64,000 nt of DNA from the NCBI RefSeq assembly GCF_025751495.1, contig NZ_JAOWKZ010000001.1, positions 875,920-939,919 of the forward strand, given 5' to 3'. This DNA is from Albidovulum litorale (GTDB lineage: Bacteria > Pseudomonadota > Alphaproteobacteria > Rhodobacterales > Rhodobacteraceae). Every line of letters starts with the position of its first letter. The first letter of the stretch is position 1. A program made the translations under genes and the position numbers. Under the pieces are notes generated by a model. The model saw only the letters and a program-made list of their open reading frames with translations, did not search any database and was not told where the DNA came from. Shown piece by piece: positions 44,069 to 53,661 of this stretch.

Positions 44069-44144
44069 GGGGCCATAGCTCAGTTGGGAGAGCGCTTGAA
44101 TGGCATTCAAGAGGTCAGGGGTTCGACCCCCCTTGGCTCCACCA
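44069..44144 (+). tRNA. tRNA-Ala (anticodon GGC), integration site
   Basis: A complete 76-nt cloverleaf including encoded CCA. The acceptor stem pairs GGGGCCA with TGGCTCC. The D arm is TAGCTCAGTTGGGAGAGCG-like. The anticodon stem CTTGA/TCAAG closes the loop ATGGCAT (anticodon GGC, reading GCC codons), and the T arm contains GGTTCGA. Its 3' 46 nt are repeated at 53614-53661, marking it as the attachment site of the element that follows. The gene remains intact after integration. Confidence 0.97.
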
Positions 44145-44146
44145 AA
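44099..44146. repeat. attL-type direct repeat (3' end of tRNA-Ala)
   Basis: The 48 bp from AATGGCATTC (anticodon arm) to CCACCAAA match 53614-53661 with one difference, C here and T there, at the T-loop position after TTCGA. The copy lies in the tRNA 3' half, the usual crossover zone of tyrosine integrases. Confidence 0.95.
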
Positions 44147-44200
44147 CAAATCAAAGACTTGCAAGAGAAATGAACACGCCGCAGGGCGCGGTTTCTTTTC

Positions 44201-44220
44201 AGGGTAACGCTGAGGGTAAC
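44201..44220. repeat. Left-end AGGGTAAC repeats (candidate integrase arm sites)
   Basis: AGGGTAAC occurs twice (44201-44208, 44213-44220), 12 bp apart, just inside the left attachment repeat. GGGGTAAC copies lie just inside the right end at 53461-53514. Symmetric placement suggests arm-type binding sites for the integrase or its directionality factor. Confidence 0.5.
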
Positions 44221-44251
44221 AAAAAAGGGCCGGAACCAACGTTTCCGACCC
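44221..44251 (-). terminator. Intrinsic terminator for the element's minus-strand genes
   Basis: Read on the minus strand, a 9-bp stem (GGGTCGGAA with TTCCGGCCC, one G-U pair) with a 7-nt loop is followed by six Ts. It lies downstream of the tape-measure remnant, so it ends minus-strand transcription before the tRNA. Confidence 0.85.
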
Positions 44252-44277
44252 TAACCATTGCCGAGCAAGAATGCGCG

Positions 44278-44741
44278 TCACGCGGTGCGTTTGGCCTGTT
44301 CAAGCCGTTCCACCTCGTTGAGAATTTCCCCGCCAATTCTTCGGCGGCTTCCAGAACCCACGTCACGCCGTTGCCGTCCTTGTACAGACCGGACGTATCG
44401 TTCTCCTGCGCAAGGATGGACGCGCGGATCAGAGGCCGCCGCAGGGGCCGCAGAAGCGCCGCCAGAGCCACCACCAGAACCGCCGATAGCCTTTTCCGCC
44501 TTCATGCCCGCCCCAAGGATGGACAGGGCCGCAGGCAGCTTCTGCCATAAGGGCAGCCGGGGATCGCAAGGATTTGGCTATACGCCCTCCAAGCGTTCAC
44601 CAATGCTTCGGCGGCGGCGAACTTCTCGCCGATCTTGGCCATCTTCTCGTTACCGCCCTGCAACGCCGCCGCCATGCCGCCCAGGAACGCCACTGTGCGT
44701 TGCATGCTATCAACGTACCATAAGGCATCAATCCCGGCCAT
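44278..44741 (-). pseudogene. Remnant of a phage tail tape-measure protein (C-terminal end, frameshifted)
   Basis: The frame from 44741 encodes MQRTVAFLGGMAAALQGGN and EKMAKIGEKFAAAEALVNAW, typical of the C terminus of tail tape-measure proteins. Near 44556 one base is missing. The protein continues in the next frame as LPLWQKLPAALSILGAGMKA and a Gly/Ala-rich stretch, stopping at 44278. The much longer N-terminal part that would be expected is absent; the upstream 180 bp have no related sequence I can see. It is a truncated, frame-broken leftover, showing that the ancestor of the element carried or recombined with tail genes. Confidence 0.72.
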
Positions 44742-44920
44742 GAGCTCGGATTGCTGCAGTGGTGCGTCTCAGAGGCGCTGGGCGGGGTCATTGGAGTAAC
44801 ATAAGTCGCCTCCTTGCCAATGTCTGCTAAGCGGACGAAGCGGTCGCTCAGAATAATGCGAAACCGCACTGGAGGTTCGCGTTTCCTAGCAAAAGCCGAC
44901 AAGCTTCCAAGTGTTCCGAT

Positions 44921-51252: not shown

Positions 51253-51441
51253 CTAGGCCGCCTCAGCTTGGGCGTTGAGCCACGCGATTACATCGGCCTT
51301 ACGCCAATAACGCCGATTTCGGAGGTATGTCGGTTTAGGGAATTTTAGGCTTTCGTCGTGAAGCCAGCGCCACAGCGTCATGTCGGAGACATCGCCGCAA
51401 AGCTCGCGCACTACCGATGCCGTAATACGTTCCTCGCCCAT
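51253..51441 (-). CDS. AlpA-like helix-turn-helix regulator
   Basis: A 62-residue MerR/AlpA-type DNA-binding protein (ITASVVRELCGDVSDMTLWR, then WLHDESLKFPKPTYLRNRRYW and RKADVIAWLNAQ). AlpA-like proteins in P4-type islands and PICI-like satellites activate excision and replication genes, often when a helper phage is induced. AAAAGG lies upstream of the ATG. It precedes the zinc-motif protein and primase genes on the same strand. Confidence 0.88.
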   Translation of the reverse strand: MGEERITASVVRELCGDVSDMTLWRWLHDESLKFPKPTYLRNRRYWRKADVIAWLNAQAEAA

Positions 51442-51516
51442 GTTCTTAACCTTTTCGCCAGAGTTAAAGCCCGTGCGCCAAGGTTAGAGGGTCGGAATCG
51501 GGTAGTTCGCGGCGTC

Positions 51517-52185
51517 CTACCCGCCTTTCTTTGGGTTCGTCAGTGCATTTTTAATCGTGCCGTCGCTGACATTGTAGGTCACCGAAAGTGTGCGACGGAT
51601 CGCTGCCCAGCTCAAATTAGGGTTTCGGCGGTGAATATCATTCGCTTCAGTCTGGGCTTTGTCGCCGTAAATGGCCTTGAAGCTACTTGCCGTCTTCTCG
51701 GCGTTTCCCCTTACACCAGACGCAATTTGCCGCCCGCCCACATCAGCCTTGCGCAAATGGGCATGGCGGGTTTCCACCATTTCAAGCCACGATCCAAGGG
51801 CCATGCCCTGATAGAATATCGCTTCCGGGTCTCCGGACTTGATGGCGTTCTCAGCGCAGACTGCGCGAAAGAACGCTCGTGACAGCATGTGCGCCTCGGA
51901 TAGCGGTTCAGTTGCATTTTCGATGTACGCGAAGCCTGCGGAAACCGAAATTGGCGGCACGGCAGGGCCATCCAAGTAAGACCAAGAGCCATCCGAAGAA
52001 ACTTCTAGCGTTCGTCCGGGATCGGGCCAGCCTAGCGCCATCAGTTTGGTGGAGATCGCCTGTTTGATCGCAGCAACCCGATCTTTTGCGGAAAGTGGCA
52101 ACTCTCGGTCCTTTGCCATTTCAGACGGCGACCGGATGCGCTCCACCCAGCGGTGCATTGCATCCTTCACGATTTTCTCCTTCAT
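51517..52185 (-). CDS. Unknown element protein with possible C-terminal helix-turn-helix
   Basis: A 222-residue protein without a domain I recognise. The C-terminal part (TEANDIHRRNPNLSWAAIRR, then TLSVTYNVSDGTIKNALTNP) reads like a small helix-turn-helix. The middle contains FYQGMALGSWLEMVETRHAH. The ATG overlaps the integrase stop by four bases, so it is translated from the integrase message and may serve as a recombination or regulatory accessory. Confidence 0.7.
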   Translation of the reverse strand: MKEKIVKDAMHRWVERIRSPSEMAKDRELPLSAKDRVAAIKQAISTKLMALGWPDPGRTLEVSSDGSWSYLDGPAVPPISVSAGFAYIENATEPLSEAHMLSRAFFRAVCAENAIKSGDPEAIFYQGMALGSWLEMVETRHAHLRKADVGGRQIASGVRGNAEKTASSFKAIYGDKAQTEANDIHRRNPNLSWAAIRRTLSVTYNVSDGTIKNALTNPKKGG

Positions 52186-53435
52186 CGGCCCGCCTCCATC
52201 CGCACCACATTGTCGCCGCTACCCTCGACCAGCGAGACGACGAACCGTGCCCACGCCTCTAACGCCCTTCGCTTCTCGTCGGCGTAATCAAAGCGGTTGT
52301 AGACCCCGGCAACGCCGCGACGGGTTCCGCTGCGATGGTTAAGCACCGCCTCGACAACATGCGGAGGAAAGCCAAGCCCCGCCATGCCTGTTGCCGCAGT
52401 TCGGCGCAGATCGTGGAGAGTGAAGGGCGGCAACTCGATTTCTTCGGGCTGACCCTCGCTGGCGATTTCCACCATCAGCCGGTCAAGCCTCCCCTTGGCC
52501 CGTGTGAAGCCCGATACGGGCCGCGCACCTGTTGTGGTAAAGATCAGGCCGGCCTTGCCGCTGATACGCTCCACGCCCGCCAGAACGTCACGCACGGCCT
52601 GTGACAGAGGCACCCTATGCTCGTCGTCATTCTTGGCGCGTTCGGCGGGAATAACCCATTCCTCACCCGAGATTTCGCGCTCCGTCATTTCGCCAACTTC
52701 CCCGCGCCGCTGGCCCGTCAGCAACAGGAGTTTGAACAACGGCCCGAACGGCTGGCCGAGTTTGTCGCAGGCCTTCCAGAACAATCGGATTTCATCGTCG
52801 CCTAGAACGCGTGTCCTCGCCTTCTCCGGTGAAGGTGGTTTGATCCCGTCCAGCGGGTTGGCCTGCACAATGTCCCTGCCCTTCGCCCAGTTGAAAAGTG
52901 TGTTCAGATGCGCCCGCAGCCGGTTTGCGCTCACGGGGCTGCCCCGGTCCACAACCCCGTCCAGCACGTCGATAACGTCACGCTTCGTAATCTCGCCAAT
53001 CTTGCGCTCGCCCCATTGTGGGATCACTTCGCGCCGAAACATCGCGGCAACGTCGTCGGCGCGCCGGTTCCGCGAGGCATGGCGTTTCAGGAATAACGCG
53101 ACCACGTTCGCGAACTTGTCGCGCTCGTCCAGTTGGGCCTCTTTGCGGGCCGCTTTTGTCGCCATCTTCTCGGTCGCCGGGTCGTCGCCGCGTTCGATCT
53201 TTTCGAGTGCGTCAGCCGCCGCAGCGCGGGCATCGGCCACGCCCATCAGGGGCCAACGACCGAGCGTGAGCTTGGAAGGCTTGCCCCCGAAACGATACCG
53301 CAGCGCCCAGGATTTCACGCCGCTTGGCTGGACAACGAGATAGAGGCCGGACAATCCCGCGTCGGGGATTTCCTGCCGTTTTTCGGGGTCGGGCTTGATT
53401 GCCTCGATACCCCGTGTCGTGAATGCCTTTGCCAT
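52182..53435 (-). CDS. Tyrosine recombinase (P4-type integrase)
   Basis: A 417-residue phage integrase. The N-terminal DUF4102-like arm-binding domain (about 1-90, GIEAIKPDPEKRQEIPD, SGLYLVVQPSGVKSWALRY) is followed by the core-binding domain and the catalytic domain with LTGQRRGEVGEM (Arg), LHDLRRTAATGMAGLG (His-x-x-Arg), VLNHRSG (His) and YNRFDY (nucleophile Tyr). The start at 53435 follows GGGGGAG; the TGG-containing longer frame to 53450 is less likely. It lies 180 bp from the right attachment repeat and presumably inserted the element into tRNA-Ala. Confidence 0.96.
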   Translation of the reverse strand: MAKAFTTRGIEAIKPDPEKRQEIPDAGLSGLYLVVQPSGVKSWALRYRFGGKPSKLTLGRWPLMGVADARAAAADALEKIERGDDPATEKMATKAARKEAQLDERDKFANVVALFLKRHASRNRRADDVAAMFRREVIPQWGERKIGEITKRDVIDVLDGVVDRGSPVSANRLRAHLNTLFNWAKGRDIVQANPLDGIKPPSPEKARTRVLGDDEIRLFWKACDKLGQPFGPLFKLLLLTGQRRGEVGEMTEREISGEEWVIPAERAKNDDEHRVPLSQAVRDVLAGVERISGKAGLIFTTTGARPVSGFTRAKGRLDRLMVEIASEGQPEEIELPPFTLHDLRRTAATGMAGLGFPPHVVEAVLNHRSGTRRGVAGVYNRFDYADEKRRALEAWARFVVSLVEGSGDNVVRMEAGR

Positions 53436-53460
53436 TGCTCCCCCAGTCAAAAGGTCCTCC

Positions 53461-53514
53461 GGGGTAACACTGGGGTAACATATTCGAGAGATAGTAAGCG
53501 TTACCCCGTGTTAC
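53461..53514. repeat. Right-end GGGGTAAC repeats (candidate integrase arm sites)
   Basis: GGGGTAAC at 53461-53468 and 53472-53479, an inverted GTTACCCC at 53500-53507 and a partial GTTAC after it, lie upstream of the integrase start and inside the right attachment repeat. Similar octamers lie near the left end. Confidence 0.55.
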
Positions 53515-53613
53515 TAACAGAACATAACATGGGACGTATTATTCTTTATTTCAAGTGGTTTCCACCCTATCTGGTGTTTTGATTTGTTAGGCCACTTTAG
53601 GGGTGTTCCTTTC

Positions 53614-53661
53614 AATGGCATTCAAGAGGTCAGGGGTTCGACTCCCCTTGGCTCCACCAAA
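53614..53661. repeat. attR-type direct repeat
   Basis: 48 bp matching 44099-44146 with one C-to-T difference. It contains only the 3' part of the tRNA-Ala sequence, so it is not a functional tRNA gene. It marks the right end of the element. Confidence 0.95.

Follow-up and report, generated by a model that had tools for sequence, protein, structure and literature searches.

A tRNA-Ala island of Albidovulum litorale as a probable member of a Rhodobacterales family of PICI-like satellites carrying their own major capsid homologue

Introduction

An integrated element in Albidovulum litorale that encodes a phage capsid protein within less than 10 kb raises the question of whether it is a satellite or a decayed prophage, and the original prediction for this locus left both readings standing. 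The locus lies in a window of 64,000 nucleotides, which is the whole stretch of DNA analysed here (contig NZ_JAOWKZ010000001.1, positions 875,920 to 939,919); coordinates below are those of the window. From gene content we consider it probable that the island belongs to a Rhodobacterales family of PICI-like satellites carrying their own major capsid homologue.

Results

A compact island in tRNA-Ala

The island of about 9.5 kb (44097-53661) is inserted at the 3' end of tRNA-Ala between direct repeats spaced by 9515, and all of its recognised genes are read on the minus strand. Its features are as follows.

44069-44144, plus strand: tRNA-Ala (GGC), the integration target, its 3' part forming attL (ARAGORN; Rfam RF00005)
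44096-44146, unstranded: attL, copy of the 51-bp direct repeat (49/51 identical to 53611-53661)
44199-44765, minus: short broken frames, a doubtful tape-measure gene remnant (phrog_3336, E 0.01-0.012 on one frame, 44502-44765)
44921-45856, minus: cargo, polysaccharide lyase family protein (PF14099, 1.8e-18)
46268-47146, minus: cargo, alpha/beta hydrolase (PF00561, 1.5e-24)
47181-47414, minus: cargo, tautomerase (PF01361, 1.5e-14)
47685-48143, minus: P27-type small terminase (TerS), whose start may lie anywhere in 48062-48143 (phrog_12559, 2.6e-25)
48288-49523, minus: HK97-type major capsid homologue, 411 aa, with a delta-like helical segment predicted at the N-terminus (PF05065, 2.6e-67; phrog_10, 1.6e-85)
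49699-49932, minus: orf80, 77 aa, upstream of the capsid gene (homologues in 10 of 12 elements)
49946-51031, minus: prim-pol, replication (PF09250, 2.9e-16; PriCT_1, PF08708, 7.6e-7)
51028-51249, minus: HNH endonuclease-like protein, 73 aa (phrog_2340, 2.1e-17)
51253-51441, minus: AlpA-like regulator/excisionase (phrog_66, 6.4e-5; homologues of 45-69% identity)
51517-52185, minus: 222-aa protein without a match in Pfam or PHROGs
52182-53435, minus: P4-type tyrosine integrase, 417 aa (Arm-DNA-bind_3, PF13356; Phage_int_M, PF22022; Phage_integrase, PF00589)
53611-53661, unstranded: attR, repeat copy with a tRNA 3' end of host type (repeat comparison)

The repeats, integrase, prim-pol and HK97 capsid of the original prediction were all recovered, the repeats being 51 rather than 48 bp long, and its zinc-motif protein matches an HNH endonuclease family. 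Two of its labels are weaker than it had stated: the AlpA-like protein, whose label is carried by phrog_66 and by homologues in related islands, falls below the Pfam HTH_17 cut-off (22.6 against 27 bits), and TerS falls below that of PF05119 (20 against 24.7 bits), its phrog_12559 match covering residues 12-149 of 152. At one position attR has a T, the tRNA-Ala base of four genomes (G394, G411, G398 and G412), where the tRNA genes of the window and of G413 have a C.

The lack of large terminase (TerL), portal and protease in the original prediction was confirmed: none of them was detected in the island, either by Pfam and PHROGs on called genes or by tblastn at E 0.01 with five TerL, six portal and four protease queries. 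General Pfam and PHROGs searches gave no family hit for lysis genes among the called island genes and none for head-tail connectors, one connector query also drawing a blank there. P4-like satellites are marked by Sid, Psu or Delta genes; none of these was seen among the 25 of 46 Pfam families listed, by a general search, for the 12 elements described below. As for defence genes, nine PADLOC families, several of which are regulators, gave matches no stronger than E 5e-8.

Reduced relatives in other genomes

The basic plan seen in the window island, namely integrase, AlpA, (HNH), replication, orf80, capsid and TerS, recurs with gaps and swaps in ten further islands whose ends were mapped, from nine other genomes. 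The plan is found in Marimonas lutisalis (G070), Tropicimonas marinistellae (L053), G349, G183, G528, G474 and G649, and in a looser version in G144 (two islands), G235 and G338. The 11 mapped islands, window included, have end distances of 8455-10606 bp (mean 9575) and occupy six kinds of tRNA gene, with repeats at the tRNA 3' ends of 48-59 bp in ten and of 14 bp in that of G235. Homology extends to the small genes, since the HNH-like protein has 62% and 64% identical counterparts in the G528 and G649 islands and the 222-aa protein a 32% homologue adjoining the integrase of the G144 tRNA-Leu island. The plan was present in 6 of 394 and 4 of 388 family genomes, about 1-1.5% of those sampled.

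Marker searches covered 12 elements, namely the 11 mapped islands and one contig, and recovered capsid in 12, orf80 in 10, AlpA in 9 (not found in G349 or G235), TerS in 9 (not found in G235 or either G144 island), protease in 2, portal in 1 and TerL in 0. Pfam on the 126 called genes of these elements, whose calling by a simple codon score missed some genes, agrees (capsid 12, integrase 11, protease 2, portal 1), TerL being absent from the 25 of 46 families listed. The single portal gene adjoins the capsid gene of G649, the proteases are those of the two G144 islands, and a connector (phrog_442) occurs in L056 alone. No integrase was recognised in L056, and the idea that this sequence is a circular genome was not proven, its ends sharing only 6 bases and its frames being open at both ends. 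An intact tape-measure gene is present in three islands, none of them the window's.

The original prediction had set against the satellite idea the case of a unique deletion derivative of complete prophages in the same site. The window island is not unique; its relatives are reduced islands in other genomes, mostly in other tRNA genes, and the searches run yielded no complete prophage with the block, so the satellite half of the original alternative is supported, while decay may still explain details of the window copy. The portal kept beside the capsid in G649 and the proteases of the G144 islands could also be read as traces of descent from a cf-PICI ancestor whose portal, protease, connectors and large terminase were lost; PF05065 is the family of cf-PICI capsids as well, according to the available text of PMC13230959. 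We regard such descent as unlikely.

Capsid clades and a shared N-terminal segment

PF05065 is the only Pfam hit of the window capsid protein. A tree of 59 capsid cores including all 23 family loci, in which the phage sample was small and chosen and no published cf-PICI capsid was among the rows, places the island capsids in two clades distinct from the phage and GTA capsids sampled: A+C (10 rows, 99/96) and B (11 rows, 100/100), with 100% of the 200 bootstrap trees recovering each as a single group. The label of satellite is firm in this tree for mapped islands only, that is 8 of 10 rows in A+C and 3 of 11 in B (G183, G649 and G474). The remaining clade rows (seven metagenome or short-contig rows, G255, G338 and L056) have unmapped ends, so that genes missing there prove little. 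In the closest pair, G474 and G255, the capsid frames are open, with dN/dS of 0.13 for capsid and 0.21 for TerS.

The N-terminal segments of G528 (core A) and G474 (core B) are 53% identical (E 1e-22) against 19% for the cores; a segment common to two otherwise unrelated cores has therefore been shuffled. The model of the window capsid is poor (pLDDT 39), apart from helices at 3-22 and 30-58 at block pLDDT 65-80. Judged by sequence and model, the protein resembles Ccm in being an HK97 homologue with a predicted N-terminal helical domain of delta type. Two helices are predicted for orf80 (pLDDT 84, pTM 0.53), for which a fold search gave a single match at E 7 and a PDB profile search a best E of 0.043, neither convincing.

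Beyond the family, the N-segment profile matched 3 of 385 class genomes: the window's own, a complete prophage in G1040 (weakly, 1.7e-9) and G931 (8.4e-4), where the surroundings had no match to the reference set. The type B capsid profile matched 0 of 337 genomes, a set that held no positive control. Locus L091 of Methylobacterium bullatum has capsid and primase and no portal or TerL match to the reference set within 15 kb; it was rejected as a relative, its capsid falling outside both clades.

For a profile of the window capsid and three relatives, the best solved-structure match is the RcGTA capsid (6TB9, E 1.4e-72), and the only PF04860 portal of the window genome adjoins a GTA-like capsid. 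This could suggest a satellite of the host gene transfer agent (GTA), whose own capsid, TerS and tape measure would redirect GTA particles. A capsid match at E 1e-40 occurs in 316 of 394 family genomes, mostly at GTA level. Yet the GTA capsids lie outside the island clades, and of the 10 carrier genomes three (G070, G338 and G144) lack a PF04860 portal and in G649 the only one is that of the island, which makes this reading very unlikely. GTAs are not known to carry an integrase or att sites, and their head and tail genes stay side by side.

Cargo and the left end

The window copy carries about 2.9 kb of cargo between TerS and attL, at a GC of 0.552 against 0.607 for 47685-53610. Tautomerase, hydrolase and lyase families each occur in 1 of the 126 called genes of the 12 elements, the window's own. 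With enzymes near a capsid gene and most packaging genes missing, one might think of a capsid domesticated as an encapsulin-like compartment for the cargo enzymes; this is extremely unlikely, as the island retains TerS, prim-pol, integrase and att sites, the cargo is confined to one copy, and the capsid protein has no Pfam hit besides PF05065.

The tape-measure remnant at the left end was not upheld: the match is at E 0.01 on one frame, the two further frames of the stretch gave none, and three sister tape measures searched against 44000-49000 gave nothing significant (best E 0.086, outside the stretch). A 35-aa piece of this left end recurs after tRNA-Ala in G413, which retains only about 280 bp of it beyond its tRNA. 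Among 22 same-genus genomes no clean empty site was found; flank and tRNA were matched in 21, the window's own included (G404 at tRNA level only), and the right flank in 14; it did not follow the tRNA in any of the five genomes inspected downstream of that gene. Prim-pol is present in 1 of the 22, the window's own.

This doubtful remnant, the low-GC cargo, the remainder in G413 and the single prim-pol speak for a decayed prophage, one that began as a tailed phage in tRNA-Ala, shed large terminase, portal, tail and lysis genes, and acquired the cargo. Against it stand the ten further reduced islands, all close in size, the separate capsid clades, and capsid frames that stay open in the closest pair, where dN/dS is low. 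We consider decay quite unlikely for the island; as the origin of the family, the decay of a unique prophage was already unlikely given ten mapped relatives and separate clades.

Discussion

The preferred reading of the island as a PICI-like satellite agrees with the attributes of Gram-negative PICIs: an integrase at the end and an att site in a host gene, an AlpA-type regulator, its own replication gene, and a capsid homologue with terS for encapsidation. Its 9.5 kb lie just below the size of about 10-15 kb given in the part of PMC11364771 at hand and were counted as fitting, and the general searches showed no full structural or lytic module in it. A complete prophage would have large terminase, portal and tail genes, of which one doubtful tail remnant is seen. 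The likeness to capsid-forming islands drawn in the original prediction holds in part. As cf-PICIs are defined in the available portion of PMC10690885, the window island shares with them a PF05065 capsid, TerS and HNH but lacks portal, protease, connectors and large terminase, and it stands nearer to PICIs with a Ccm-like capsid homologue.

One of these, in the published sections available, is SaPIbov5, whose Ccm is an HK97-fold capsid homologue with an N-terminal delta domain that supplies the pentamers and yields a small isometric head; no protease was identified in its genome, and it is reported to carry the helper cos site (PMC5052747, PMC8569155). The window island is likewise a probable satellite with an HK97 capsid homologue bearing a predicted delta-like segment, and no protease was detected in it. 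SaPIbov5 differs in its Gram-positive host and helper cos site, where the window island has a TerS gene after the capsid; the Rhodobacterales islands are further set off by shuffled capsid segments and cores, orf80 and an occasional tape measure. By their description in the text available of PMC6092414, the Gram-negative PICIs, EcCICFT073 and PmCI172 among them, have a comparable gene set in other hosts (int, alpA, replication, capsid homologue, some with terS), PmCI172 yielding small heads. The PISP plasmids of Vibrio (11 kb; capsid protein, small terminase, regulator, no tail genes) differ in lacking an integrase and in having a capsid protein of the E family and a protease, as far as the same part of PMC13230959 describes them. 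PLE satellites of Vibrio cholerae share a tape measure, which is intact here only in three other islands; the accessible portion of PMC12987554 includes a figure legend placing putative tmp in diverse satellites, cf-PICIs included. Charybdis elements were dropped as a likeness, having no HK97 capsid in the portion seen of PMC12324425. PLEs also differ in that they reportedly remodel capsids taken from their phage.

Our best reading, by analogy, is that the family works like SaPIbov5, its capsid homologue redirecting the helper head and its TerS the packaging. An infecting or induced helper phage would switch on AlpA, which with the integrase would excise the island for replication by prim-pol. 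The satellite capsid protein would then enter the helper prohead, as Ccm does, and force a smaller head with room for about 10 kb; size and match to the helper would be set by the delta-like segment, perhaps together with orf80. TerS would steer the helper TerL to satellite DNA, and helper portal, protease, connectors and tail would complete the particle; in three other islands a tape-measure protein of the satellite may become part of the tail as well. No resident helper was found in the window genome by PF04860 or PF03354: no PF03354 large terminase was detected and the only PF04860 portal lies beside the GTA-like capsid, so a helper would have to be external or of some other kind.

We tentatively propose, with the balance somewhat against it, that the capsid is an exchangeable two-part device, the delta-like N-segment being kept among satellites and the shell core swapped between two deeply different lineages. 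The segment, with orf80, could be a module for size and helper matching, and exchanges of the core could track the helper. Through its capsid, TerS and tape measure the family would re-specify three checkpoints of the helper, head, DNA choice and tail respectively, and borrow motor and gate.

These islands would extend capsid-homologue satellites to the Rhodobacterales, an order also known for gene transfer agents. The natural swaps of N-segments would be ready-made chimeras for learning how the delta domain of HK97-type proteins sets head size, a role suspected but left open by the SaPIbov5 authors in the sections available. The window copy also suggests that metabolic cargo may travel on islands that are readily classed as remnants of prophages.

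Ends and gene content of the island

As the original prediction had it, the island is bounded by direct repeats in tRNA-Ala; the two copies are identical at 49 of 51 positions:

44096-44146, direct repeat, 51 bp, the 3' end of tRNA-Ala
53611-53661, direct repeat, 51 bp, the distal copy

From attR, the genes run in the order integrase, 222-aa protein, AlpA-like protein, HNH-type protein, prim-pol, 77-aa protein (orf80), capsid and P27-type small terminase (TerS). The ~2.9 kb after TerS have a GC content of 0.552, against 0.607 for 47685-53610, and hold tautomerase, hydrolase and polysaccharide lyase genes; a broken stretch comes next. 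One frame of this stretch weakly matches the tape-measure family phrog_3336 (E 0.01); since its other frames match no tape-measure family and three sister tape measures find nothing significant there, a tape-measure remnant is doubtful.

Among the 22 genomes of the genus searched, prim-pol was found only in that of the window. The tRNA end at the distal repeat is that of four same-genus genomes (G394, G411, G398 and G412), and the window tRNA carries a different base at that position, common to it and G413, a pattern that would be the expected result of integration replacing the tRNA 3' end. In G413, ~280 bp like the left end of the window island lie beyond tRNA-Ala (contig L108, 764-1044) and are probably the remnant of a related island; integrase and capsid are absent from the 10 kb examined there. 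None of the same-genus genomes showed a clean empty site between the two flanks. Elsewhere in the window, Rfam PYLIS_3 (pyrrolysine insertion element) scores above its cut-off at 13662-13761; this match is probably conserved coding sequence instead, because it lies inside an uninterrupted 517-aa frame (12591-14144) read as MttB-like.

Relatives and shared plan

With an E-value limit of 1e-40 the capsid search matched 316 of 394 family genomes, most of them with scores typical of gene transfer agent (GTA) capsids (~200 bits); with a limit of 1e-70 it matched seven: the window's, G070 (Marimonas lutisalis), G349, G338, G144 (two places), G235 and G105. By gene order and a later reference-set comparison, G105 holds a prophage that has a tape measure as well as genes resembling large terminase (TerL) and portal, whereas reduced islands are present in the remaining six. 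Among 84,980 species genomes scanned, 82 matched the pattern and four were confirmed as relatives, namely M. lutisalis (60%) and Tropicimonas marinistellae (54%), both Rhodobacterales, and two distant ones (38%). An orf80 profile, whose rows included the window, G235 and G338, matched these three and four new genomes (G183, G528, G649, G474) among 390 of the order. A profile of the type B capsid lineage, built from G474, G649 and G183, matched 4 of 388 family genomes, the query row G183 among them, and six small virus contigs; carriers of the other lineage, types A/C, number 6 of 394, the two samples overlapping. Judged from these sequences, the island is not unique: related genomes carry reduced islands, and the window copy is not the lone deletion derivative that the original prediction had considered. 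Titles and abstract openings among the open-access matches listed describe no such Rhodobacterales islands, from which we claim no absence from print.

Repeats were mapped in 11 islands, in tRNA-Ala, Thr, Cys, Asn, Leu and His. Their start-to-start distances are 9515 (window), 8959 (G070), 9483 (G349), 10547 and 10083 (G144), 9754 (G235, with a repeat of only 14 bp), 9364 (L053, T. marinistellae), 8455 (G183), 9274 (G528), 10606 (G649) and 9281 bp (G474), with a mean of 9575 bp among islands chosen by capsid or orf80, not size. A marker search of these and contig L056, with some queries taken from the elements themselves, found orf80 in 10 of 12, AlpA and TerS in nine each, HNH in five, portal in one (G649), protease in two (both G144), connector in one (L056) and large terminase in none. 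It found neither orf80 nor TerS in the G144 islands, neither AlpA nor TerS in G235, and no AlpA in G349. Pfam assigned capsid 12 times, integrase 11, portal once and Peptidase_S78 twice among the 126 called genes of these 12 elements. TerL is absent from the 25 of 46 families listed; the list seems to be sorted by count and E-value and to reach 2e-7, and would therefore have included a strong TerL. Intact tape measures occur in G528 (581 aa), G235 (647 aa) and G474 (612 aa), matching tape-measure PHROGs at 1e-76, 4e-19 and 3e-21. The G338 locus has AlpA, TerS and a weak tape-measure match (E 0.007); no tRNA was found there and its ends are unmapped.

Several loci vary the arrangement. At L067 7095-8273 (G649), a portal gene follows the capsid and no large terminase was found, an intermediate plan. 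G349 (L038/L039) has three copies of the tRNA-Cys repeat, so two islands seem to lie there in tandem. A tRNA-Asn beside similar-looking hydrolase and sensor kinase genes holds such islands at L053, L042, L065, L067 and L082 and is probably an insertion hot spot. The IMG/VR contig L078 (2600-11300) has two capsid-TerS-HNH units with tRNA-Asn between them, and L079 repeats parts of both.

The comparison with capsid-forming islands (cf-PICIs) made at the outset stands for the capsid and TerS genes; however, the definition given in PMC10690885 includes portal, protease, connectors and both terminases, and the window island, with no portal, protease, connectors or large terminase, falls outside it. 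In G474, a second element of perhaps ~10 kb (L109, ~9800-19911), with TerL (PF03354) and portal-like matches, an integrase and a capsid ~30% like type B, resembles a capsid-forming island by its predicted genes.

Capsid lineages and exchange of the N-terminal segment

A tree was built from 59 capsid cores: 22 of island type, with Methylobacterium bullatum among them, 23 from family loci and 14 from phages, prophages or GTAs. In it the ten A+C capsids form one group (99/96) and the eleven type B capsids a second (100/100); both groups recur in 100% of the 200 bootstrap trees, and a smaller 38-row tree recovers them too. The G105 prophage capsid is the nearest row to A+C, and the M. bullatum capsid falls outside both groups. 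Eight of the ten A+C rows come from mapped islands (not G338, L056); among type B rows only G183, G649 and G474 do, the rest being short contigs or a G255 locus without mapped repeat, where missing genes prove little. By NG86, dN and dS are 0.107 and 0.852 for the G474-G255 capsids (ratio 0.13), 0.122 and 0.569 for their TerS (0.21), and 0.352 and 1.305 for the window-G070 capsids; L078/L080 capsid pairs are less constrained (0.34 and 0.42). The two separate, supported groups and the low G474-G255 ratios make it unlikely that the island family originated as decayed prophage.

Residues 1-58 of the window capsid, preceding the core, are predicted as two helices and are the only part of the protein modelled with confidence. 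The segments of G528 and G474 are 53% identical (E 1e-22, segment E-values being calculated for a nominal database size of 1 million letters), against 19% for their cores; this segment type also occurs in G070, G649, L053 and the window. Another segment type is found on core A in G349 and L056 and on core B in G183 (G183-G349 E 3e-11), with weak contact between the two types (G349-L053, 2e-5). Since in both types similar segments sit on dissimilar cores, recombination has joined segments and cores in new pairings. Among 50,697 phage records none matches the G474 segment at E 0.01; its satellite-specificity is not proven, because a complete prophage of G1040 has a weak relative (1.7e-9).

Proposed working

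SaPIbov5 Ccm is described as an HK97-fold homologue of the capsid protein of the helper; it has a delta domain of its own, takes pentamer positions, makes the head small and isometric, and forms no capsid alone (PMC8569155, PMC5052747). The likeness is a satellite with an HK97 capsid homologue and a delta-type segment, here read from genes. Gram-negative PICIs are likewise reported in PMC6092414 to run int, alpA, replication and encapsidation, with capsid homologues and in some cases terS, an order recognizable in our islands at the level of gene content. According to that source PmCI172 yields small heads and EcCICFT073 packages phage-sized DNA despite its capsid homologue, so that such a homologue is by itself no proof of size redirection. 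A helper would supply large terminase, portal, protease and tail. That GTA functions alone serve as this helper is highly improbable: among 10 carrier genomes tested, a PF04860 portal is missing from G070, G338 and G144, and the sole one of G649 is the island's own. The tape measure of three other islands has a precedent in PLE11, a satellite whose tape measure is reported to enter the tail, with putative tmp genes shown in other satellites (PMC12987554).
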